From Clostridia bacterium (GTDB taxonomy: Bacteria > Bacillota > Clostridia > Lachnospirales > Lachnospiraceae): a stretch of DNA of 64,000 nucleotides. The position numbers were made by a program, and so were the translations under genes. Shown here piece by piece: positions 2-63,647 of this stretch (the first letter of the stretch is position 1; each line of letters opens with the position of its first letter). The stretch lies in contig SAAB01000015.1 of assembly GCA_009929615.1 (NCBI GenBank), positions 1-64,000 on the forward strand, in the 5' to 3' direction. The notes under the pieces are model-generated. The model was not told the origin of the DNA. It did no database searches and worked only from the letters and a program-made list of their open reading frames with translations.

Positions 2-1960
2 GATATCAATGGCTATACATTCGTAAGAGCAGAGGATTTAACTGTAGGAACAAACAATGATGAAAACATCGTTAAAGTATACTACAGCAAAGATGAAAAA
101 GGCCCAGAGGGCGGTTCCGATGATATTCCGGATAGATATCAGGTGACATTCACATATGCAGCTGGAACAAACGGAAAAGTTGAAGGAACAACCACAGAAG
201 TCAAAACGGTACAGGAAATCACAAGAGATTCTGTGACAGGAGAAATCACAAACGTAGGACCAGTTGTAGCGCAGAACCCAACACAGCCATCCACAGTGAC
301 AGCCGATGAAGGATACCGCTTCTACAAATGGAATGACGGAGCAGCAGACTACGCAACAGACGATGCATTGAAAGCAGCAGGCTTCACAACGGATATGACC
401 TTTACTGCAAACTTTACTGAAAGAGAAGACCTTTTTTATGAAGTACATTATTTCTATGATATGGTTGAAGATTCAGCAAGTACAGTAGTAGCAAACAATG
501 GTAAATTCAATGCACAGATTCCTTATGATGAAACTTCGCCTAAGACTTTCGATGGAAAGAATTATATTCTTGAAAGTGTTGAAAAACTGAGTGAAGGAAT
601 CATTACAACAGATTCTGCAAAGAACATCATTAATGTATACTATACATTAGACAATAATGGTCCTGAAGAAGAACCAGATGAGGTTCCAGATAAGATTCAG
701 CATGGAGTAACTTATGACGGCAATGGCAATACATCGGGTACAGTACCGGTAGATGCAGCAATCTACAGCGCAACAGATGATATTACATTAAAGGATAAAG
801 GAGCTCTTGCAAGAGAAAATGCAGTATTCGGTGGATGGTCTTATGAAGCGACAGCTTTACTTGAGACACAGGAAGCAGAAGACGCAGTAAATCTTGTACC
901 AAATCCATTCCGGATTTCTACAGACACAACAGTATATGCTGTATGGGCTGCAGATACAAACGGTAATGAGATTCCGGATTACAAGGAAAGCTATACCTTA
1001 ACCATTAACTACAGTTATGCAGCAGGAAGCAATGGCGACCTTGCAGAACTTCCGGCAACATACACACAGACATTGGGTGTAAATGCTCCTTACAGCGTAG
1101 CTTCCAAGACGATTGAAGGCTTCAACGTAAATACAGCAGTTGTTGAAGGAACAATCGTTGACCATAATGTAACCGTAAACGTTGTTTATACACGTCGTAC
1201 TTATACAGTAACAGTTACAGACCCAGACGGTAACGTAGTTGGTGAAATCGAAGTACCACATGGTGATGATGTAACAGATGATGAGATTATTGATACACTT
1301 CCTGAAGACAAACAGGACAATTACGATGGCGTTACAAATCCGGATGACCTTGTAGATGTTACAGAGGACATTACGATTACCGTAAACTATACGTATACAG
1401 TAACTGTTCAGGATATCAATGGAGCTACAGTTCAGACAATCCGTGTACCTCACGGTGGAACTGCAAATCCTGCAGTACCGGCAGTAGAGGGTCAGACCTT
1501 TACCGGATGGACATTCATCTCTGGAGGAACATCACTTGAGAATATCACAAGCGATATGACAATTCGTGCAGCTTACACAGCAGTTATAATTCCAGCACCA
1601 GTTGACCCAGTCGTACCAGTTGCTCCAACACCGGATGCAACACCAACACCAGCTGTTATACCAGCACCAGCTGCACCAGTTGCAGCAGCTCCTGCAGCGG
1701 TTACAACGATTGCAGAGCCTGAAGTGCCATTAGCAGCAGAACCTGATGACAATGCAGATTATGATTTATCCGTAATTGATGAAGAAGAAGTGCCTCTGGC
1801 AGACATGGACGACCACAAGTGTTGTATCCTTCATTTCCTCCTCTTATGCTTAGGTCTTTTGATTGAAATCTGGTATACACATGACCAGAAGAAACGTCAG
1901 AAGAGAATATTCGAGTTGAGAGAAATGCTTTCAGAGAAAACGAATGGAGAGATCAGATAA
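2..1960 (+). CDS. Repeat-rich cell-surface protein, 5' end outside window
   Basis: The reading frame is open from base 2, so the true start lies upstream; a methionine at 143 is internal. The visible 652 residues consist of repeated beta-rich modules resembling MucBP and InlB B-type repeats (for example [13 protein letters not shown] and [17 protein letters not shown], then [21 protein letters not shown]). Next come a Pro/Ala/Val-rich stalk (about 1590-1700), an acidic segment ending [13 protein letters not shown], one hydrophobic segment [19 protein letters not shown], and a basic tail. There is no LPxTG sortase motif, so I infer anchoring by the C-terminal membrane helix. Probably an adhesin-like protein, but the ligand is unknown. 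A 65-aa membrane gene with a similar juxtamembrane tail follows closely. Confidence 0.8.
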
Positions 1961-4261: not shown

Positions 4262-5563
4262 TTGATTATGGTAAAAGCAATCGTTGGAGCAAACTGGGGA
4301 GATGAAGGAAAGGGCAAGATAACCGATATGCTTGCAGAGAAGTCGGATATTATTGTAAGATTCCAGGGAGGAAGCAATGCCGGTCATACTATTATTAATG
4401 ACTACGGTAAATTTGCTCTTCACATTCTTCCGTCAGGGGTATTTTATAACCACACAACAAGCGTTATAGGTAACGGTGTGGCATTGAATATTCCTTATTT
4501 GGTGAATGAAATTAACTCTCTCGTTGAAAAGGGAGTTCCACAACCTAAGATTCTGGTGTCAGACAGGGTTCAGATTTTGATGCCGTATCACATTTTATTT
4601 GACCAGTATGAGGAAGAACGTCTGGGAGGTAAATCTTTCGGATCAACAAAATCAGGTATTGCCCCATTTTATTCCGATAAATATGCAAAGATAGGTTTCC
4701 AGGTAAACGAACTCTTTGAGGATGAGAGCATTTTGAGAGATAAGGTTTACAGCGTATTGGAAACTAAGAATGTGCTTGTAGAACATTTATATCATAAAGC
4801 TCCGATTGATCCGGAAGCAATTATAAAAGAGCTTTTGGAATATAGAGAGATGATTCGCCCATTTGTGTGCGATGTTTCCGTATTTTTAAGAGATGCTATC
4901 AAAGAAGGCAAGAATATTTTGCTGGAAGGTCAGTTGGGTTCTTTGAAGGATCCTGACTTTGGTATCTATCCTATGGTTACATCTTCATCAACACTGGCTT
5001 CTTATGGTGCTATTGGTGCCGGAATTCCAGGATATGAGATTAAAGAAGTTGTAACAGTTGTAAAGGCTTATTCCAGTGCAGTAGGTGCGGGTGAGTTTGT
5101 TTCTGAAATTTTTGGGGATGAAGCAGATGAACTTCGTCGTCGCGGTGGTGATGGTGGAGAGTTTGGTGCAACAACAGGCCGTCCTAGACGTATGGGTTGG
5201 TTTGATGCTGTTGCTTCCAGATATGGCTGCCGTATGCAGGGTGCAACAGAAGTTGCATTGACAGTTTTAGATGTTCTTGGATATCTGGATGAACTGCCTA
5301 TCTGTGTAGGATATGAGATCGATGGAGAGATTACAAAGGATTTCCCATCCACACCATCTCTGAAGAAAGCTAAACCTGTTTATACAACACTGCCGGGATG
5401 GAAGACAGAGATTCGTGGTATCACAAAGTACGAAGAATTGCCTGAAAACTGCCGGAAGTATATTGAGTTCATTGAGAAAGAACTGGAAGTTCCGATTACG
5501 ATGGTATCTAATGGCCCGGGACGTCATGAGATTATTCACCGTCAGAGCAGTTTGAAGAAATAA
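4262..5563 (+). CDS. purA: Adenylosuccinate synthetase
   Basis: The first committed step from IMP to AMP: GTP-dependent condensation of IMP with aspartate. The protein has the family N-terminus VGANWGDEGKGKITD (P-loop-like), GSNAGHTII with the catalytic His, and the late segments TTGRPRRMGWFDAV and NGPGRHEII. The length of 433 aa is normal. GGAG at 4251-4254 sits 7 bases from TTG 4262 and 13 from ATG 4268, so the TTG is the better-placed start, with ATG 4268 possible. Monocistronic, with its own promoter and terminator. Confidence 0.96.
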   Translation: MIMVKAIVGANWGDEGKGKITDMLAEKSDIIVRFQGGSNAGHTIINDYGKFALHILPSGVFYNHTTSVIGNGVALNIPYLVNEINSLVEKGVPQPKILVSDRVQILMPYHILFDQYEEERLGGKSFGSTKSGIAPFYSDKYAKIGFQVNELFEDESILRDKVYSVLETKNVLVEHLYHKAPIDPEAIIKELLEYREMIRPFVCDVSVFLRDAIKEGKNILLEGQLGSLKDPDFGIYPMVTSSSTLASYGAIGAGIPGYEIKEVVTVVKAYSSAVGAGEFVSEIFGDEADELRRRGGDGGEFGATTGRPRRMGWFDAVASRYGCRMQGATEVALTVLDVLGYLDELPICVGYEIDGEITKDFPSTPSLKKAKPVYTTLPGWKTEIRGITKYEELPENCRKYIEFIEKELEVPITMVSNGPGRHEIIHRQSSLKK

Positions 5564-5575
5564 TTAAAGGATTTA

Positions 5576-5612
5576 GAGCATGAGGATATTGATATCTTCA
5601 TGCTCTTTTTTA
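5576..5612 (+). terminator. Intrinsic terminator after purA
   Basis: GAGCATGAGGATAT pairs with ATATCTTCATGCTC around a very short loop, followed by a run of T. Confidence 0.85.
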
Positions 5613-5794
5613 TTAGATAGGAAATTATTTTACTATTTTCAACGCAAAATGCATTATATTATACAATTTAATGGAAGTATCTGATTACTTTTGGAGAAAA
5701 AACTGTAAAAAGTAGAGAATTGACAAAAAAATATCAAATATTTTGGAAAGACATGAATCTGTGTAAAGTATTGTGTAAAATTGTTAAAAATAAG

Positions 5795-5823
5795 TTTACT
5801 ATTCGGACAATTCGTGTTAAAAT
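5795..5823 (+). promoter_or_regulatory. Sigma-A-type promoter of the ABC importer operon
   Basis: TTTACT (5795-5800), a 17-base spacer and TAAAAT (5818-5823), the same hexamers as the purA promoter. The gene-free stretch 5613-5932 otherwise holds AT-rich DNA and a roughly 100-base leader (5830-5932) with a small GGCTGC-type hairpin near 5896. I could not match it to a known riboswitch. Confidence 0.5.
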
Positions 5824-5932
5824 AAATGTGACAGTAGAGTTTGAGAGAGAATGTCAATCAAGTATTCCTTTCGGCTCTTTTTATGGTTAAGGGGGTTTGC
5901 TGAAATAGGCAGCCAAAAAAGGAGGAGAAACT

Positions 5933-7075
5933 ATGAAAAAGATGACTAAGAAGACGTTAGCAGTGGCATTGACAGCAACGATGTGTCTGGTACTTGCAGG
6001 CTGTGGCGGCGGAACAAAAGAAACAAAGGCAGCAGAAACAAAAGCTGGAGAGACAACGGCCGTTGCCGAAGGAGCAGTGGATTTAAATGCAGCTACTTTG
6101 GACGATATCATTGCCAAGGCTAAAGAAGAAGGTCATGTTGAATCCGTTGGTATGCCTGACAGTTGGGCGAATTGGGGACTTACATGGACAGATTTAAAAG
6201 AAGAGTATGGCATTGACCATGCAGATACAGATATGTCTTCTGCTGAGGAACTTCAGATGTTTTCAACGGAAGGTGAAAAGGGAACGAAAGATATTGGTGA
6301 TGTAGGCTTTGCTTTTGGAACGCAGGCTATCGCAGACGATTTAGTTCAGGGTTATAAGACCTCTTACTGGGACAGCGTTCCGGATTGGGCTAAAGGCGAA
6401 GACGGCAAGTGGATGGTTGCTTATACAGGAGCAACAACATTCCTGACAAACACAGATATCGTACCAACCGCTCCTACATCATGGGCAGATATTGAAGCTG
6501 GTGATTATACCGTAGCTATTGGTGATATCAATGGCGGTACAGCTCAGGCAGCAGTTATTGCTTCTGCATATGCTTTTGGTGGAAGTCTTGAGAATCTTGA
6601 CCCTGCTTTTGAATTCTGGACCAAGATGGCAGAGGACGGAAGAATTAATACTTTAGATATTTTGCAGCAGAACTTTGAAACTGGTGAAGTTCCTGTAGGC
6701 GTTATCTGGAGTTACACAGCAATTCCTTACAAAGATCAGATTACACAGTATAAAATGGAAGCAACAATCCCTTCTGATGGCTCTATCATGAGTGGATATG
6801 CATCTGTAATTAATAAATATGCTCCTCATCCATATGCAGCAGCACTCGCTAGAGAATATATCTTCAGTGATGCAGGACAGGCTAACCTTGCCAGCGCAGG
6901 TGCTATTCCTACAAGAACTGACGTAGAGATTCCGGCAGAGATTCAGGAAGCTACATTTGCTCAGGAAGCATATGCTAATGCTGTTCCTATGGAAGATGCA
7001 GAAGCTTATGCAGCAGCATGTGAAACTGTTGCAACAAGATGGCAGGAAGAAATCATTCCATTGCTTGTTCAGTAA
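5933..7075 (+). CDS. ABC importer substrate-binding lipoprotein
   Basis: This 380-aa extracellular binding protein starts with a lipoprotein signal (basic MKKMTKK, hydrophobic core, lipobox LAGC with the acylated Cys near residue 24), followed by a Gly/Thr/Lys-rich linker. The body has the look of the type II periplasmic binding proteins of spermidine/putrescine, iron or aminoalkylphosphonate importers (ETGEVPVGVIWSY, YIFSDAGQANLASAGAIP). AGGAGG precedes ATG 5933. It heads an operon with two permeases and an ATPase. The substrate cannot be told from sequence alone. A stem-loop in the following spacer probably stabilises this first cistron. Confidence 0.85.
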   Translation: MKKMTKKTLAVALTATMCLVLAGCGGGTKETKAAETKAGETTAVAEGAVDLNAATLDDIIAKAKEEGHVESVGMPDSWANWGLTWTDLKEEYGIDHADTDMSSAEELQMFSTEGEKGTKDIGDVGFAFGTQAIADDLVQGYKTSYWDSVPDWAKGEDGKWMVAYTGATTFLTNTDIVPTAPTSWADIEAGDYTVAIGDINGGTAQAAVIASAYAFGGSLENLDPAFEFWTKMAEDGRINTLDILQQNFETGEVPVGVIWSYTAIPYKDQITQYKMEATIPSDGSIMSGYASVINKYAPHPYAAALAREYIFSDAGQANLASAGAIPTRTDVEIPAEIQEATFAQEAYANAVPMEDAEAYAAACETVATRWQEEIIPLLVQ

Positions 7076-7114
7076 TCAAAACCGATAATACTATTTGGTG
7101 AATGTAAACTATAT

Positions 7115-7148
7115 TTGGGGATGCTGGAATATGCATCCCCAGTCTTTT
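7115..7148 (+). terminator. Intercistronic stem-loop between binding protein and permeases
   Basis: Perfect stem GGGGATGC/GCATCCCC (7117-7124 and 7133-7140) followed by AGTCTTTT. Because the downstream genes have no obvious promoter, it is more likely a partial terminator or mRNA 3'-end stabiliser that keeps the binding protein in excess. Confidence 0.6.
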
Positions 7149-7216
7149 AATCGATGGATGGTTCGTCAGAATATAAGGTTTAGAAAGCCATTTAGCATTA
7201 GATAGGAGTTGAATTC

Positions 7217-8068
7217 ATGAAAAATAAAAAGTATATTTATTTGATCGCCCTCCTTCCTTTTCTGGTGGTTGCATTTCTGTATGAAATCATTCCATTAATT
7301 ATGGTTGTGGTCAACAGTTTTCAACCCGATGCGGGCGGGGCCTTTACATTAGAAAATTATAGAACAGTTTTTTCAAAACTGCTCTACCAGAAAGCAATTA
7401 TTAACAGTATTAAGATATCTCTAACCTCATCTGTTGTGGGCATTATCATTGCCTTTCTCGGTGCCAGAGCAGCACATCAGCACCAGGGAAAACTCAATAC
7501 AGTGTTTATGACAGTTTTGAATATGGTATCTAATTTTGCGGGTATTCCCCTTGCTTTCGCATATATGATTCTCCTTGGAAATGCAGGTTTTATGGTGAAT
7601 GTAGGAAGGGAATTAGGTATTGATTTCCTTGCTAACTATAATCTCTACACCACAAGTGGAATGAGTCTTATCTACATATATTTCCAGATTCCTTTGTCAA
7701 CGTTGCTCTTGATACCGGCTTTTGATGGTATACGAAAAGAATGGAAGGAAGCTTCCACACTGCTGGGCGGCGGTCCGGGGACCTTCTGGAGAAAAGTAGG
7801 TATTCCGGTACTGATGCCGAGTATCCTTGGAACTTTCAGTGTGTTGTTTGCCAATTCTCTGGCAGCTTATGCAACAGCTTATGCGTTGATGATGAATAAC
7901 ATTTCCTTACTGCCGATTCAGATTGCAGGATGCTTTACCGGCGAGGTTCGAATCCGAGCCGGACTGGGAGGTGCACTTTCCGTGGTAATGATGATTATCA
8001 TGGTTGTTATGATTCTGATTACCAACATATTAAGCAAGCGGTTTCAGAAAGGGGTGGCTAAACGATGA
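7217..8068 (+). CDS. ABC importer permease, PotB-like
   Basis: This 283-aa integral membrane protein has about six hydrophobic helices, beginning with YLIALLPFLVVAFLYEIIP. The cytoplasmic EAA loop is visible as EWKEASTLLGGGPGTFWRKVGIP, the segment that docks on the ATPase. AGGAGTTG precedes ATG 7217. Its stop overlaps the next permease start by ATGA, implying translational coupling. It forms the membrane channel with the next gene, taking substrate from the lipoprotein upstream. Confidence 0.88.
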   Translation: MKNKKYIYLIALLPFLVVAFLYEIIPLIMVVVNSFQPDAGGAFTLENYRTVFSKLLYQKAIINSIKISLTSSVVGIIIAFLGARAAHQHQGKLNTVFMTVLNMVSNFAGIPLAFAYMILLGNAGFMVNVGRELGIDFLANYNLYTTSGMSLIYIYFQIPLSTLLLIPAFDGIRKEWKEASTLLGGGPGTFWRKVGIPVLMPSILGTFSVLFANSLAAYATAYALMMNNISLLPIQIAGCFTGEVRIRAGLGGALSVVMMIIMVVMILITNILSKRFQKGVAKR

Positions 8069-56693: not shown

Positions 56694-58271
56694 CTAATTA
56701 TCAATTACCTCCACTTCACTAGGTGGTATAACTTCTACGTCTGGATTTACAGGTTCAGTCATCTGAGCTATGTAACCTTCGATTGTGGCATTAAGCTGAG
56801 TGAGGATAGATGTCATATGTTCTTGTAAGTCAGCTGGTAAGCTAGAATTGGATGTAATAGCCATAACTTCGTCATTCATTGTACATCTGCGAATCCACAC
56901 ATTGTAGGAATTGATTAAAGTCGTAAACTGTGTGACATAAGCATCCGCAACAATAGATATTAAAGCTAATTCTTTTGGAGTGTAGAATTTACAGGCAAAT
57001 TTATCAGAGTGATAAGGCAAAGATACCTGTAGCTTGTCAGAACGTCGTTCCAGCTTATCAATATTAATCTGGTCAAGTGTAGTGAGAGAGAAGTGTTCCA
57101 TGCCACTCGGCAATTCAACGTCAACACCAGATTCAATAATGTCTGAGATTTCTTTCTGTATTTCCTTACACTTAAATTCTTTTAACTCGTCTAAAGTCAT
57201 CTGCGACGGGTCAATTACAGAGTCAATCTTTTCAGCTAATTCAGCCACCTTTTCTTCAAGCATTTTCCGCTTGGTAAGACTTGAATCAAGTTTCTGAGTA
57301 ATCTCGTCATATTTCTTGTCGATTTCATCCTCTAATTCATCATACCCATTAAGTATCATGTCATAGTTTCTATCTTCAACAAGTTCTTGACGTTCTTCTT
57401 CAAGTTCTCTTAACTGTGCTTGCAATTCGCGACGTTTGCGTTCAGCTTCAGCACCAGTCTGTCCATCTAATACTGCAAGCTGAGACTGAATCGAAAGAAT
57501 ATCTTTATTCTTATCACGAATTTTCTTCTGATAGTCATCGTATTCTTTTTGAGTCCGAAGAGCCTCTTTACGTCCACTAATGAGTTCTTTCTGTGCATCT
57601 ACCTGTTTTTCAATACCTTCTTTGGTAAGTTCTACCATGGCTTTACGGTATTCATTAACATCATCCGCCGCAGATTGAGATTCATCACGATAATCCCTAA
57701 GAAGTTCTGTATACTCTGACTGAGTAATATTTCCCTTCTTTAAGTCGTCATTTAACTTATTGATGGCATTTTCATACTCCGCAACCTGCTTCTTTGCTGT
57801 ATTCAGTTGTTGACCTAAAAGGGCATATTTAGTAAGCCCCTCACTTGTAAGACCTCCATCTTCGGTGAAGAAATTATCTTCGTTTAGAAGGTCAATAGCA
57901 CGTCCAAGCTCATCAATCTTATCTTTATTAGCTTCAACGTTTTTGGTAAAATTATCCCAATTTGCCTCGTGAACATTATCCTTAACATCCTCAAGTTCAA
58001 GATTTACATCTGCGATTTCGTTTTTAAGCGACATCATGGTTTCTTGCATCTCAAACCATTTGTCCGTTCCAACAAAACCTTCCTGATTTTTCATCAGATT
58101 ATCATATTCAGCTTGTAAAGTTTTGAGCTCTTTCTCTCGATTATCCTTTATGGCGTTATTATATTTAATAACATTGTCATAGTCTTTTGCGGTTAAAGTC
58201 TTTCCTTGCTTTTCGGCAAGCTTGTTTATAACCTCGTAATTCTTCAAGATTTCGCTCAAGTGAGAATTCAT
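56694..58271 (-). CDS. Tape measure C-terminal region fused to a tail-protein (DUF4376-like) C-terminus
   Basis: Residues 1-325 are heptad-rich coiled coil (ELKTLQAEYDNLMKN, ERKRRELQAQLRELEEE) of the kind ending clostridial tape measure proteins. From about 335 the text changes to EEKVAELAEKIDSVIDPSQM, then TLDELKEFKCKEIQKEIS and PYHSDKFACKFYTPKELALI. That pattern belongs to a small accessory tail protein (DUF4376-like) normally encoded several genes downstream. The ATG 58271 lies in an ATGA overlap, but the upstream frame continues sensibly (DFKYEKIDNIVDDFDN) and joins the preceding ORF if one base is added at 58346-58348. So this is most likely the 3' part of one gene. Confidence 0.6.
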   Translation of the reverse strand: MNSHLSEILKNYEVINKLAEKQGKTLTAKDYDNVIKYNNAIKDNREKELKTLQAEYDNLMKNQEGFVGTDKWFEMQETMMSLKNEIADVNLELEDVKDNVHEANWDNFTKNVEANKDKIDELGRAIDLLNEDNFFTEDGGLTSEGLTKYALLGQQLNTAKKQVAEYENAINKLNDDLKKGNITQSEYTELLRDYRDESQSAADDVNEYRKAMVELTKEGIEKQVDAQKELISGRKEALRTQKEYDDYQKKIRDKNKDILSIQSQLAVLDGQTGAEAERKRRELQAQLRELEEERQELVEDRNYDMILNGYDELEDEIDKKYDEITQKLDSSLTKRKMLEEKVAELAEKIDSVIDPSQMTLDELKEFKCKEIQKEISDIIESGVDVELPSGMEHFSLTTLDQINIDKLERRSDKLQVSLPYHSDKFACKFYTPKELALISIVADAYVTQFTTLINSYNVWIRRCTMNDEVMAITSNSSLPADLQEHMTSILTQLNATIEGYIAQMTEPVNPDVEVIPPSEVEVIDN

Positions 58272-61200
58272 ATTGTCAAAATCGTCAACAATATTATCAA
58301 TTTTCTCATACTTAAAATCAGTGATATCCTGTGAGAGTTGCCGTATTTCATGAGAGCAGCTGTCTGTGCGGCAGACAAGATTATATCGCCTTTTTTAAGC
58401 TTTTCTTGATGCATGCCAGGTGGAAGAAGTTCCCATTTTCCACTGCGAATTCGTGATTCACGTCCGATTTCATTCACCAATGCAACTTCATCCCTTGGTA
58501 AAGAAACTTTTCCAGTTCCATAGGCATGTGCTTGCGATAACATTGTTGGCGACATTGTGCCACTTGCTTGAGCAGGAGAGAACATCGTGCCCGTTGCTTT
58601 TTGCTCAACAATAGTTCTAAATACAGTTTGGAAAATTGGAGGCAAGTAGCTAGAAATATCTTCTATAACACTTCGAATAACGCCCTGAGATGCCGAAGGA
58701 GCTTCTGTTGGTACAGGGTCAGTAACTTCCTGACTGACACCTTGAGTTGCGGGGTCAACTTCTTCTGGTGGCGGATTTACGACCTCATAGGTGATAGTAC
58801 CGTCTTTATGTTGAACTTGTGCGACTTCTTGTATAACGCCTCCGACATTTGCAGTGTATATAACAGAACCGTCCGTATTTTTGATAACATTTACTTCTGC
58901 TTGAACACCGTCAACATTTGCATCAAATGTAATAGTGCTTCCGATTGTCATTGCATCAATCTGCGACTGTAATTCATTCTGGTCAACTTCACCTTCAAAT
59001 TTTAAATGAATAGGGTCAGGCGTGATTCCGCCCAAATCGGTTCCGAGAAGTTGTGCAAGTTCTTCTCTTGTAATTCCTGCACTTTTAGCAACTTCATTTA
59101 AAACGTCTTGTGCCTTGTCGGAATTCAGATATTCTTCCCAGTCGGCTACTTCTCCATTCGCAAAAGCGTCCTGATAAGCGTTTTGAACATCATAAATACC
59201 ATCAATCTGCTTCTGTACAGCAACTTTCTGGTCGTCTGTGATATTGTCGTCAAGCTGTTCCTGCAATGTGAGAATATTGTCCGTTGCTTGTTCATATGAT
59301 TTGCTGTCTTTACCGTCGTATCCGGTTTCACCCTCACGTTGGCTTCGATATTTCTTATTCGCAACGTTTACAGATGCCCAGTCCTTGTTTTCACCACTAG
59401 CCTGAGCCTCTTCTTGTAAATCCGCAATCTGTTGACGAAGATTTGCCATATCATATTCAAATTTAATCTTTACGATTTGCTCCTCAGATAATCCTGCGAG
59501 GTCTTCTTCTAATCCGGCATATTCATTGTCGTACTGCTCAAGCATGTTGCCAAGCCAATCTTTATACGCACCGTCCTCTAAAGAATTGAAAATGTCACGA
59601 ATTCCTTCAAGATTTCCTTTGTATTCTTCGATACCTTCGCCGCTGAATACTACGTCATCAAATTCCGCACCGTAGGCTTCCATACCGTGAAGCATAGCCT
59701 CTGTAACTTCCAAACTTTGACCAAGAGCATCAGCCGCTTCAGCAGTATTCTTGAATTTCCACTCCATGCCATTTTCGCCATCAGACAGCAATTCGGCACC
59801 ACGTAAATCGTCTGTGAAGTTTACGAGTCCTTGGAGTGGGTCTTCGTTGCCAAAATATCGTGCAACTGAATCACGAGCATTTTCCCAAGCCTCCACATAT
59901 CCGTCCGCATCATATACGTAATCATCTTCATTGATTTTATATGGTGAGAACATCTGAGTGAGAGATTGGAAGTCGTCTGTACCGACAAGACCAGCGTTGT
60001 AAAGCTCATTGCCTTTATTATAGTACTCCATCATTTTTGAGTAATTAGCGTCCTGATTTTCGGTTTCAAACGCAGCATCAACCGTTGACAGTTTTCCGTC
60101 AAAGCCAGAAATGGCTTCTGAAACACCATCGGCAGAAGATTTCGCTTCGTCAAGATATCTTTTCAGGGTGCTGATATTTTCAACACCGATATCATCAAGA
60201 CTAATACCCATACTATCTAAAGCATCTCTGAGTTCCGTCGTAGAATCTGATGCATCCATCAATTCTTCTTTCAGGAATTTTCCACCTTTAGAATTATCGA
60301 AGAATTTGTTTAAATTATTCAACTCTCTCTCGGCAGGAGACAAGTCAATGTTATTTACACTCTCAAAAGCTTCCTCGTATTGTTTGGCTAATCCTGCGTA
60401 TTGTGGGTCCCCAAGAATGGCTTCATAATTTTTTGACGCAGCTTCTACACGAGTAGATAAATCAGCATTTAAGTCTGCTTGATATTTGCTTAACGACTCA
60501 ATTTCTTTTTGATATTTTTTAACTTCCTTTGGGTCGGTTGCGGCGGCTTGAGCATCTTTCATATTTTCAAGCTGATTGTTTACATTTACGATCTCGTCAG
60601 CAGTTGTCTTGATTTGCTCGGCATCGGTGAGCCAATCCGCAGAATTCCCATTGCCATCTGCATAAGCCATGCCATAAAGGTTGTTATCTACTTTATTTTT
60701 ATAAACATCATCTTCAGATGTGGTCGACAATGCAAGAGCAGCGGCAGAACCTGCTGCAACTTTTTGAGCATTTGCCATGTTCTCAAGTAAGGTTTTCTTT
60801 CTTTCAAGTTCATTATTTTGTTCTTGAAGTCTTGACAATTCGGCTTCGTCAGACAAAGATATGGAATCTTGAGCATTTATTTCGGCAATTTTCTGTTGAG
60901 TTGTTGATAACTCGGAATTCACAGATTCCAATTCTGATGTAGTAGACGTGTAATCATCAATCGCTTTTGAGGCACTTTCAAGGTTGGTTCCATAATCTAC
61001 TTTAAATACGTTTTTATTGAGACGATCAAAAACAGAGGATAAGAAAGTCAATCCACCAATTAGACCAACCGCTCCAAGCGTAGCCATTCCTGTACCTGTT
61101 TTTGCCCAATCAACAAATGCTGTTTTAGCACCTTTTACGACATTTGTTAATCCCGAAAATCCTTTTTTGGATTTATCTATTTCGTGCATCCTGGTAATAA

Positions 61201-61411
61201 CATCGGAAACATTGTCGCTAAGTCCGATTGTTTCTAAGGCAGCTTTTGCAATATCATCAGACACTCCACCAAAATTTAAAACCTTTGCTATGTCACCGAT
61301 ATCATCAATTGATCTGATAATATCAGAAACCTTCGACGCATCATCTGCGACTTCTGAAATATTGGAAAATGTATTTACCAAATCCCCCATCATACCTATA
61401 TTTTTGAGTGA
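58268..61411 (-). CDS. Phage tail tape measure protein, third coding segment
   Basis: About 1,047 residues. A hydrophobic stretch (GMATLGAVGLIGGLTFLSSVF) is followed by long coiled-coil and helical regions, a beta-rich insert (GSTITFDANVDGVQAEVNVI), a Pro-rich linker, and LKKGDIILSAAQTAALM near the end. Annotated alone it would start at ATG 61420, which lies inside the upstream insert. The true coding resumes at 61411 (SLKNIGMMGDLVNTFSN). The last residues (HRISLILS to the stop) are out of frame after the T-run at 58346-58348. Sets virion tail length if functional. Confidence 0.75.
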   Translation of the reverse strand, partial: SLKNIGMMGDLVNTFSNISEVADDASKVSDIIRSIDDIGDIAKVLNFGGVSDDIAKAALETIGLSDNVSDVITRMHEIDKSKKGFSGLTNVVKGAKTAFVDWAKTGTGMATLGAVGLIGGLTFLSSVFDRLNKNVFKVDYGTNLESASKAIDDYTSTTSELESVNSELSTTQQKIAEINAQDSISLSDEAELSRLQEQNNELERKKTLLENMANAQKVAAGSAAALALSTTSEDDVYKNKVDNNLYGMAYADGNGNSADWLTDAEQIKTTADEIVNVNNQLENMKDAQAAATDPKEVKKYQKEIESLSKYQADLNADLSTRVEAASKNYEAILGDPQYAGLAKQYEEAFESVNNIDLSPAERELNNLNKFFDNSKGGKFLKEELMDASDSTTELRDALDSMGISLDDIGVENISTLKRYLDEAKSSADGVSEAISGFDGKLSTVDAAFETENQDANYSKMMEYYNKGNELYNAGLVGTDDFQSLTQMFSPYKINEDDYVYDADGYVEAWENARDSVARYFGNEDPLQGLVNFTDDLRGAELLSDGENGMEWKFKNTAEAADALGQSLEVTEAMLHGMEAYGAEFDDVVFSGEGIEEYKGNLEGIRDIFNSLEDGAYKDWLGNMLEQYDNEYAGLEEDLAGLSEEQIVKIKFEYDMANLRQQIADLQEEAQASGENKDWASVNVANKKYRSQREGETGYDGKDSKSYEQATDNILTLQEQLDDNITDDQKVAVQKQIDGIYDVQNAYQDAFANGEVADWEEYLNSDKAQDVLNEVAKSAGITREELAQLLGTDLGGITPDPIHLKFEGEVDQNELQSQIDAMTIGSTITFDANVDGVQAEVNVIKNTDGSVIYTANVGGVIQEVAQVQHKDGTITYEVVNPPPEEVDPATQGVSQEVTDPVPTEAPSASQGVIRSVIEDISSYLPPIFQTVFRTIVEQKATGTMFSPAQASGTMSPTMLSQAHAYGTGKVSLPRDEVALVNEIGRESRIRSGKWELLPPGMHQEKLKKGDIILSAAQTAALMKYGNSHRISLILSMRKLIILLTILTI

Positions 61412-61483
61412 CATTAACATGGTAGAATGATATAATTAAATAAACAACTTGTTGTTATTGAATATTAATACAGGAGGAATAAA

Positions 61484-62263
61484 ATGGCTTTAATAAATTG
61501 TCCAAAATGCGGAAGAGAAAATGTATCAGATATGGCTGAAAAATGTCCTGAATGCGAATTTGAAATAAAATCATATTACCAAAATATCGAAAAAGAAGAA
61601 TTACGTAATAAAAAAGAGCAAGAATTATTAGAAAAACAGAAAAAAATAGACGAACAAGAAGCAAGAAGGATAGAAGAAGAATCAAAAAAGCAAATAAAAT
61701 GCCCAGAATGTGGTACGTACTTTTATGAAAAATTGAGAATATGTCCTAATTGTGGATTTTCAATGGATGATACAGAAAATATTAATAAACTTAAAATAAT
61801 TGAAGACTTGAAAAACGAAGCGGATAAAAAAACATGGACATGGTTCCTTGCCTTGGCGATAATATTTGGAGCGGGGTGCATTTTTATGATTTATGAGGGG
61901 GGCGGTATACTTATACTATTAGGTGGCGTGATGACCTTAATATGGACATTTTTAGCATGGTCATTCGCACAAGATAAAGTAGAAAATAAAAACAAACTCA
62001 ACTTAGCTTTAGATGATTATCAAACATACAAAGAAAAATACGGAAATAAACGTCCAATTCAATCTGTAGAAATCACTCTCAAAGACATGAAAGAAATCCA
62101 GCGAGTCAGAGAAAATAGAGGTGTCAAATGTCCATATTGCAGCTCAACCAACATTAAAAATATTTCAGGCACTTCCCGTCTGGCATCAGCTGTGACTTTT
62201 GGAATCCTGTCTAAGAAGATAGGGAAGCAGTGGCATTGTAATAACTGCAAGAGCGATTTTTAG
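61484..62263 (+). CDS. Zinc-ribbon membrane protein carried by the element
   Basis: This 259-aa protein has three zinc ribbons: Cys 6/9/21/24, Cys 73/76/87/90 and Cys 216/219/252/255. Between the first two is a highly charged coiled coil (about 30-70). Two membrane helices follow at about 118-138 and 140-163 (WFLALAIIFGAGCIFMI, GGGILILLGGVMTLIWTF). All ribbons would face the cytoplasm. AGGAGG at 61472-61477 precedes ATG 61484. It is the only gene on the plus strand of the prophage part and is AT-richer than its surroundings, suggesting cargo with separate origin. Function unknown. Confidence 0.8.
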   Translation: MALINCPKCGRENVSDMAEKCPECEFEIKSYYQNIEKEELRNKKEQELLEKQKKIDEQEARRIEEESKKQIKCPECGTYFYEKLRICPNCGFSMDDTENINKLKIIEDLKNEADKKTWTWFLALAIIFGAGCIFMIYEGGGILILLGGVMTLIWTFLAWSFAQDKVENKNKLNLALDDYQTYKEKYGNKRPIQSVEITLKDMKEIQRVRENRGVKCPYCSSTNIKNISGTSRLASAVTFGILSKKIGKQWHCNNCKSDF

Positions 62264-62344
62264 AATTGGAGAACTTATAAACCAATATTATTGAAGAAAA
62301 TAGTGTATTTTTATTTTTTCTCTCTTTAACAAACGTATCTAATA

Positions 62345-62645
62345 GCAGGAGAGTGATGCTACTAGAGACGTGTGGTCTACCACAATATATACCTTGGAAC
62401 ATTCATTAAGAGCATACACAATATGGCTTGTATATACTCCGAGGAAGGGTGCTCTCTCTACTCCTCCCAAGACTAATATCTTTACCCCGTCACCACGATT
62501 TAACGTAGTTGTTGCTAACGGATTATATGATAAAACTTTCGCTCTTGGGTTGGCTCGTGCGTTGCCACGGGACATGTTTCCATGCTTTTATTTCACCCGA
62601 TTCACTACTATATAATAGTAGAATAGTGGATTCGACGAATTATTC
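62345..62645 (-). ncRNA. Candidate structured RNA (HEARO/omega-RNA-like, or group I-like)
   Basis: Read on the minus strand: hairpin CTACTAT-TAT-ATAGTAG (62621-62605); GNRA-capped CATG-GAAA-CATG (62584-62573); GAGCCAACCCAAGAGCGAAAG; then CGTTAGCAACAACTACG and GTTAAATCGTGGTGACGGGG, followed by TAAAGATATTAGTC. Further on, an 11-bp stem pairs GAGTATATACA with TGTGTATGCTC, and GTGG-TAGA-CCAC forms another hairpin. The block TTAAATCGTG...GGTAAAG-TATTAGTC resembles what I recall of HEARO (IscB/IsrB) omega RNAs. AAGATATTAGTC also resembles the group I intron S element. Class not settled. Confidence 0.5.
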
Positions 62646-62759
62646 CTCTATTTATTTTAGAACCCTATTCTCACTGCATTGAATTATCACGCCTTTATGT
62701 GATTTTCTCTGCAATAATAGACCCACTCAATAGTATAAGTGTAGCCGGGAATTTGGCCA

Positions 62760-63311
62760 ATCTAGGTTCTTTACGAATTTGGCAATTCCAATACCACCTA
62801 AAATCGGTTTTAAAATTCCAAATTGGTCTATAAGTTGCGTTATAATTCCTAAAAGTCCGGTTCCGCTATCAATCAATCCTTTAAATAAATCCGATGATAT
62901 CGCTGTAGTTGAAAACTCCTGGAACTGAGCTTTAAACTGTTGCTGTTTGGCTTCGATGCTCTGCATCCATCGGTCTTGCTCGGCTTGTGCTGAACCTTCA
63001 GAATTCAGCGTTGCCTGATATGCTTTTTCAATCTGTCCTGACTGGAACGCCTGAATAATTGCAGCACCTTGATTTCCTCTTTGTTTTCCAAAAAGTGTTT
63101 CTAACAAGTCTGCCTGAGCGGTAGATTCAAGTTCATCGTATACCTCGGATACGCCTTTAAGGATATCGTAGTAATCTTTAAATTTAGACGGGTCGGCATC
63201 ATTCATGATTTTTACTTGACCTTTGGTAAGATTCAAAATATGTGTCTGAATTTTGCTTACTGACTCAAGTCCTTCGGATTCCTCTCCGAGTTCCTCAAGT
63301 TTACCCTTCAT
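62760..63311 (-). CDS. Phage tail tape measure protein, second coding segment
   Basis: Codes from MKGKLEELGEESEGLESVSK to GIAKFVKNLD. The central part, DYYDILKGVSEVYDELES, ETLFGKQRGNQGAAIIQAF and SGQIEKAYQATLNSEGSA, is highly characteristic of TP901-1-type tape measure proteins. Bounded by the two inserts at 63312-63647 and 61412-62759. Both junctions fall between codons and join smoothly to the neighbouring segments (VMG|MKGKLE and KNLD|SLKN). As it stands the segment has no start codon with a ribosome site. Confidence 0.8.
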
Positions 63312-63647
63312 CAACCTGTTACTTTCGGCATGACTGCCTACTGACCATAATGGATATGGCGACATGTCATTTCTGGCATGTTCTCACGTTTCTTTTATTT
63401 TGTGATTATTGCGTGAGGTCGGACTGTATATCACCGTTTCCTTTTTAAAATTGGAGAGCGGAATAACTTAAATATGTATGTTACCATACATATCTGGCAG
63501 TCTCTGAGGATATTTGCAAATTGCAAATCTTTCCTAAGTCTCTGGTGTCACATCACCCTTTGACTTATATAGTTATTGTGCTGTGTATTTTATTTATACT
63601 GCGAGACACAGATTATTATTTTCATAATAAGGGGGCATGAATTGTTT
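63312..63647 (-). ncRNA. Group I intron in the tape measure gene
   Basis: A 336-nt insert between GGT (exon, ending in U at 63648) and ATG AAG (exon 2 from 63311), with G as its last base. P1: exon GGGU pairs with GCCC (63636-63633), with U-G at the splice site and an 11-nt loop. P7: R-like CAGAGACTGCC (63506-63496) pairs through GACTG with CAGTC of the S-like GATATACAGTCC (63432-63421). P8: perfect hairpin ATATGTATG-GTAA-CATACATAT (63493-63472). P9: CTCACG...CGTGAG. No ORF inside. Precise removal gives the continuous reading QMRVMGMKGKLEELGEE. Confidence 0.78.

Follow-up and report, generated by a model that had tools for sequence, protein, structure and literature searches.

The insert at positions 61412-62759 of the window, the 64,000-nucleotide stretch of DNA analysed here (C73:1-64000 of a 3.5-Mb genome), is, judging from its sequence, almost certainly a group I intron, situated within the tape-measure (TMP) gene in a prophage of Lachnospiraceae. 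On its opposite strand lies a gene encoding a zinc-ribbon protein (ZnR). The best explanation, and a highly probable one, is a group I intron in the TMP gene that carries an accessory gene expressed in lysogeny. The novelty would lie in the cargo, a conserved antisense non-nuclease gene within a phage group I intron. No account of such a gene in phage introns was found in the open-licence literature, in agreement with an earlier reading made from the letters of this DNA (the sequence-only reading), which had suspected an undescribed arrangement.

The tail region of the prophage occupies the minus strand in the last 8 kb of the window. The exon directly upstream of the insert matches the tape-measure family PHROG 4211 (E 3.4e-27). 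Free of the insert, the exons read ...AACCTAGAT|TCACTCAAA... on the minus strand; joined in silico they give GAT|TCA, that is, FVKNLD|SLKNIG, in frame and with no target duplication. Both the ends, which are sharp, and the scarless junction had been placed exactly so in the sequence-only reading, and they are as expected of group I splice sites. The insert is single-copy within its own genome and contains no transposase, TnpB, IscB or HNH gene. The coordinates of all features are collected in Table 1.

Table 1. Features of the predicted TMP intron, its flanking exons and its antisense gene. Positions are those of the window.
Feature	Position	Strand	Basis or remark
Predicted group I intron, 1,348 nt	61412..62759	minus	P1/P10 pairing; 9 further introns compared
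Intron splice sites	5' site follows U at 62760; last intron base is G at 61412	minus	
TMP exon between two introns, ends FVKNLD	62760..63311	minus	PHROG 4211 tape measure
TMP exon 3' of intron, starts SLKNIG	58268..61411	minus	ORF listing and exon alignment
P10 strand GAGUGG	62723..62728	minus	pairs with 3' exon UCACUC; two-sided changes in 4/6 pairs, 10 introns
Internal guide GUCUA	62718..62722	minus	pairs with 5' exon UAGAU (P1), U.G at splice site
P3 5' strand GAGGA	62644..62648	minus	pairs with 62441-62445; invariant, 10/10 paired
P4 5' strand UUCGU	62635..62639	minus	CG to GC double changes
P7 5' strand GAGAGCA, bulged A (G-binding site)	62450..62456	minus	first pair GC to AU double change
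P3 3' strand UCCUC	62441..62445	minus	
P8 hairpin	62410..62439	minus	two-sided changes in 8/11 pairs
P7 3' strand UGUUCC	62396..62401	minus	
Antisense ZnR gene, 259 aa	61484..62263	plus	N-terminal ribbon, middle ribbon, two hydrophobic stretches, C-terminal ribbon CPYCSS..KQWHCNNCKSDF
ZnR ribosome-binding site AGGAGG	61472..61477	plus	sequence
Promoter-like site GTGACA-17-TATAAT (TG-extended)	61408..61436	plus	intron 3' end, reads into ZnR
Palindrome AACAACTTGTTGTT	61443..61456	plus	ZnR leader, downstream of -10; possible operator

The structured, conserved RNA suspected at one end of the insert is borne out. Its 5' part (507 nt, 62264-62770, minus strand) has a folding z-score of -4.36 relative to shuffles, none of 100 being equally stable. 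Over ten homologous introns, 96.1% of the cells of 49 base pairs form pairs. Two-sided, compensatory changes are found in 25 of the 49 pairs, compared with 16.2 in shuffles and with only 2-7 when the partners are slid by 1-3 columns, and double-change cells number 80 against 26.1 in shuffles. The helices P3, P4, P6, P7 and P8 stand in the canonical group I order, and the P3-P7 pseudoknotted core is present with its bulged base and conserved G-C pair. P7 is paired in all cells; its outer pair changes from GC to AU in four sequences, and the G-C pair at the guanosine site is invariant. P3 is also completely paired, yet it is invariant and itself contributes no covariation. P4 and P8 were judged by count and P6 by eye, because the automatic alignment of that helix is off by one column: CCCAAGA/UCUUGGG of the window corresponds to CCCUAUC/GAUAGGG and CCAUGUC/GACAUGG in other introns.

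The splice sites are conserved in the same way. The final U of the 5' exon and the terminal G of the intron (omega-G) occur in ten of ten introns, as does the U.G pair of P1 at the cleavage site, and position -2 varies between AU, GC and CG in step. For P10, 88% of the cells are paired in the ten introns; the 3' exon CAACUU co-occurs with the guide AAGUUG or UAGUUG (AAGUCG in L185). This bears on the plus-strand flank GTGA, previously taken for a fixed target. It is the complement of UCAC in the 3' exon, where homologues show CAAC, TCGA or TCGT, and it is variable because it belongs to P10, changing in step with the guide. Sequence and covariation demonstrate the fold of the intron, its splice sites at both ends and the antisense gene linked to it.

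Homologous elements occur in many other genomes. When 299 genomes of the family were searched by BLASTN, the RNA turned up in Frisingicoccus caecimuris, a different species of the same genus that has two tandem copies with 76-77% identity, and in Hungatella hathewayi WAL-18680. DNA patterns and a profile, applied to viral and genome collections, added homologues in viral contigs (L010/L011, L039, L070, L023, L061, L030, L035, L151-L154), Clostridium sp. 12(A) and HBUAS56010. Searching with the joined exons as a profile retrieved further members, among them divergent introns (L218, L198, L216, L196, L188, L183, L204) together with intron-free TMP genes. The 5' exon ends equivalently in nearly all homologues, with FVKN-x-[DAG]| or a close variant. 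Empty sites are also available, with a continuous gene and no duplication, in L205-L210 and L278. The former are TMP homologues with one open reading frame across the insertion site; being divergent, they demonstrate the continuity of the gene, not the exact junction. The cleanest is L278, which is 54% identical over the joined exons and reads ...GLGAFIKNFD|NLKN... unbroken. The exact junction follows from P1/P10, the intron-bearing alleles and L278. No match was obtained in a DNA similarity search among named phages or with the fused TMP as a query against plasmids.

Some further observations concern the TMP genes themselves. A second TMP intron, 336 nt long and without an ORF, lies at 63312-63647 of the window (minus strand), with the boundaries GGU|AAAC...GUUG|AUGAAG. 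Joining its exons gives MRVMG|MKGKLEELGEE, in agreement with MRVMGMKGALEELGEE, which is uninterrupted in L039; a group I-like P7, CAGAGACUG...AUACAGUCC, is present, and this intron is likewise unmatched in Rfam. Two TMP-like genes stand in tandem in F. caecimuris (L007, 3824-13999), and both contain an intron copy and an antisense ZnR gene or genes of their own. Another intron is found upstream of the homologue in L153 (2734-3112), with an RF00028 score of 36.9 bits at a gathering cut-off of 50. On the 3' side of the intron, the TMP frame of the window is broken at about 58,325 (within approximately 58,250-58,350, minus strand); in comparison with L007, about 100-150 codons appear to have been deleted, with a shift of frame after LMKYG. 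This may reflect either a defective prophage or an assembly that collapsed at this point.

Rfam scans of the window and its homologues, with the HEARO and group I models included, gave no family for the intron RNA. In particular, the group I model RF00028 matched neither the window nor its close homologues; the long P5/P6 extensions and the divergent P7 probably account for this. We treated this miss as insensitivity of the model, which is a detection tool and not a defining feature of the class; the structural features of group I introns are present.

The origin favoured by the sequence-only reading, an IS200/IS605-type element of the IStron or HEARO class, here one that has lost its transposase, can be given almost no weight. 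It would account for the sharp ends without duplication, and IStrons do combine a group I intron with IS605/IS607-type genes and IS ends (PMC4227781), carry their cargo between the core and the 3' splice site, and occur in clostridia and phages, like the TMP intron. However, the flank is not fixed but covaries with the guide. TnpA/TnpB, relics included, and a fixed tetra- or pentanucleotide target were not found. The palindrome read as a subterminal recognition hairpin does exist, yet the 3' ends of the homologues examined did not show it, so that there is no conserved terminal hairpin. The lineage does not end in TCAG, unlike IStron group A (PMC4227781), and its introns occupy one equivalent codon of the TMP gene, compared with the scattered insertions of IStrons. 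The cargo is antisense and not a transposase. Membership among HEARO or IscB omega RNAs was rejected as well, as the HEARO model is unmatched and there is no IscB.

ZnR is the only sizeable gene of the insert with a good ribosome-binding site. The oppositely oriented zinc-ribbon cargo was correctly recognised in the sequence-only reading, and the protein has three CxxC-type zinc-ribbon motifs. The C-terminal ribbon is common to ZnR proteins and follows the pattern CPxCxSxN..KIS......FGxF....K..C.NCxxxW/F. An N-terminal ribbon starting with MALIKCPECG is frequent, and the middle of the protein is variable. Outside the ribbons the proteins diverge greatly, and hydrophobic helices occur in only some of them, that of the window included, which does not favour a single membrane exclusion mechanism. 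The ZnR genes of L152 and L154 have a dN/dS ratio of 0.14, which points to purifying selection on the protein. The AlphaFold model has a mean pLDDT of 61. In the intron copy of L008 the gene is frameshifted; its row of the ZnR profile was written across the frameshift and was used in the search profile only. Three tandem copies are found in L204, with identical C-terminal ribbons and differing N-terminal parts. In L275 approximately nine ZnR-like genes follow one another and resemble an expanding array; they are antisense to an upstream TMP-like N-terminal piece.

The gene is tightly linked to the intron. Antisense ZnR is the intron gene closest to the 3' splice site in all 19 readable introns of the lineage (the window, two introns of L007, L008, L010, L035, L039, L061, L152, L154, L183, L185, L188, L196, L198, L204, L216, L218 and L219), counting four (L035, L198, L216, L219) in which the contig or locus ends within or just past ZnR and the 3' junction lies outside the sequence, and counting L219, whose RNA was not scored by the profile. 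L107 has neither ZnR nor the TMP 3' exon within 5.8 kb.

The ZnR profile has matches in 25 of the 299 genomes of the family. Many of them lie antisense between two pieces of a gene in the TMP position, some in other group I lineages, which were recognised by eye and not by a model. TMP group I introns outside the lineage of the window that contain antisense ZnR are those of L258/L269/L272/L273, L271/L262, L266, L310, L322 and L296. What marks such lineages is their P7 strands, for example GUUCAGAGACUGU...GAGACAGUCC in L258/L269/L272/L273 and GUUCAGAGACUAU...GGAUAGUCC in L266. When the more distant loci were compared with PHROG, using the ORFs that lie 3' of ZnR, only L272 gave a TMP match; in the others the name tape measure rests on position and size. 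In IMG/VR, a giant ORF on the opposite strand (400 aa or longer, opening -250..+500 nt from the start of ZnR) adjoins ZnR in 35 of 51 loci, compared with 5 of 56 control genes of similar size from the same loci; the former count is to be read with three further loci cut by the locus end, with L308, which is among the 35 although it is unlike TMP, and with a few near-duplicate contigs such as L338-L340. A strict text descriptor of P7 was too insensitive in viral ZnR loci, with matches on the sense strand in 13 of 49 and on the other strand in 11 of 49, and was set aside as evidence. Many ZnR genes are located outside introns. Some of them stand alone next to the repressor or integrase gene of a prophage (L267, L351, L352), which fits a gene of lysogeny.

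The region between the ribozyme and ZnR is variable and in some introns encodes a PemK-type toxin, Bro-N, NYN or choline-binding-repeat proteins. The longest size reported for the lineage is the 11.5-kb intron of Clostridium sp. 12(A) (L185), which has an IS66-like transposon at 4845-7248 (oriented coordinates) beside tail-fibre-like genes. In L070 two tandem skipping-rope RNAs (RF02924) are found at 54-240 (minus strand), downstream of the ribozyme and sense with TMP; they may be intron cargo.

The promoter-like site at the intron 3' end is the best of its region, with 11 of 12 positions matched and no equal in 200 shuffles, and its -35 box straddles the splice junction. Over 18 loci, the sites upstream of ZnR score 9.9 on average compared with 8.4 in shuffles, a modest enrichment; for the 17 genes other than that of the window they are on average slightly better than chance.

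What ZnR does may be explained in several ways. One possibility is that the ZnR protein helps to maintain or mobilise the intron, as a maturase or as a homing protein that has escaped recognition, and does not serve the lysogen. Zinc ribbons commonly bind nucleic acids, ZnR accompanies TMP introns nearly without exception and in several group I lineages, and HNH endonucleases do sit in the TMP introns of Thomasclavelia phages. On the other hand, ZnR is below every cut-off for the nuclease families, and no homing endonuclease was found, ZnR being the sole gene inside the insert, so that the description of a nuclease-less intron-type element stands. Moreover, the transcript to be spliced is the late one, from which an antisense gene is not produced; ZnR relatives without an intron exist; and a highly variable N-terminal half and tandem copies would be awkward for a maturase. 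We therefore regard such a factor as unlikely.

It is still less likely that antisense transcription itself is functional, running through the ribozyme and the upstream exon and repressing TMP in the lysogen. The promoter-like site would serve this, and no terminator-like site was found in 61200-62800. However, purifying selection acts on the protein, and the C-terminal motif is kept where the spacing and the RNA differ, which indicates that the ZnR protein matters. An ordinary moron inserted by chance, accompanied by an RNA of no further relevance, would agree with the variable cargo between the ribozyme and ZnR, in which the IS66-like genes may be counted, but it is hardly credible, as the RNA and the splice-site pairing are held by compensatory changes and the position of ZnR is conserved.

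We consider ZnR probably to be an accessory gene ("moron") expressed in lysogeny. Upon prophage induction, late transcription would yield a TMP pre-mRNA from which the intron would excise itself, by guanosine attack at U|U and ligation of the exons via P1/P10, resulting in a whole tail protein. In the lysogen, with the late genes silent, the promoter at the intron 3' end would drive ZnR from the opposite strand. The intron would thereby house an accessory gene within an essential structural gene at low cost, genetically tied to the TMP allele. ZnR would act in the lysogen against superinfecting phages, possibly upon the incoming TMP itself. This role is suggested by the invariably antisense orientation within introns, the position adjoining the TMP 3' exon, the tandem diversification, and the stand-alone relatives beside repressor or integrase genes. 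Superinfection exclusion directed at TMP is a tentative proposal, made by analogy. It best fits the linkage, the antisense position and the tandem diversification because there is a precedent, the superinfection-exclusion lipoprotein Ltp of phage TP-J34, which targets TMP (PMC3952083). Ltp is a prophage gene expressed in lysogeny with a reported TMP target, which is the logic proposed for ZnR; unlike ZnR, it is an unrelated lipoprotein and is encoded beside the integrase, not inside TMP.

Group I introns of bacteria and phages are commonly regarded as selfish homing elements. Those in phage genes are well known and usually contain a homing endonuclease or nothing (PMC3984707, PMC11878797). Phage group I introns with homing endonucleases (such as the HNH-bearing ones in TMP of the Thomasclavelia phages TR-TP1/TR-TP2, and those of T4-type phages and Bastillevirinae, PMC11878797) share with the TMP intron the ribozyme class and core, the location in structural genes, and the U|...G| splice sites. 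The TMP intron has no endonuclease but a conserved antisense ZnR instead, and some of its relatives have further variable cargo. In L220/L221 (3080-10909; TR-TP1/TR-TP2) TMP is annotated as separate genes, apparently with two HNH-bearing introns between them. Antisense homing endonuclease genes are found in nuclear rDNA group I introns of Didymium (PMC9548176). There, as in the TMP intron, the gene lies opposite the ribozyme strand and presumably has its own promoter; the Didymium gene encodes an endonuclease in eukaryotic rDNA, whereas the gene described here is a non-nuclease gene in phage tail genes.

The repeat of this arrangement in dozens of related phages suggests that introns keep useful lysogeny genes within an essential structural gene. 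A recurrent antisense non-nuclease family in several intron lineages missed by Rfam, all in one gene, would make introns safe harbours for genes of the phage or the lysogen, and many "split" TMP genes of clostridial prophages may be intact, their introns having been overlooked. The ZnR family provides new candidates for superinfection exclusion, positionally tied to TMP. It is possible, though we put it forward with reserve, that these are a diversifying family of exclusion genes placed antisense in self-splicing TMP introns, with an immunity-like gene co-inherited with the tail protein that is its target. If so, clostridial temperate phages would hold a nested, self-splicing locus of target plus immunity.
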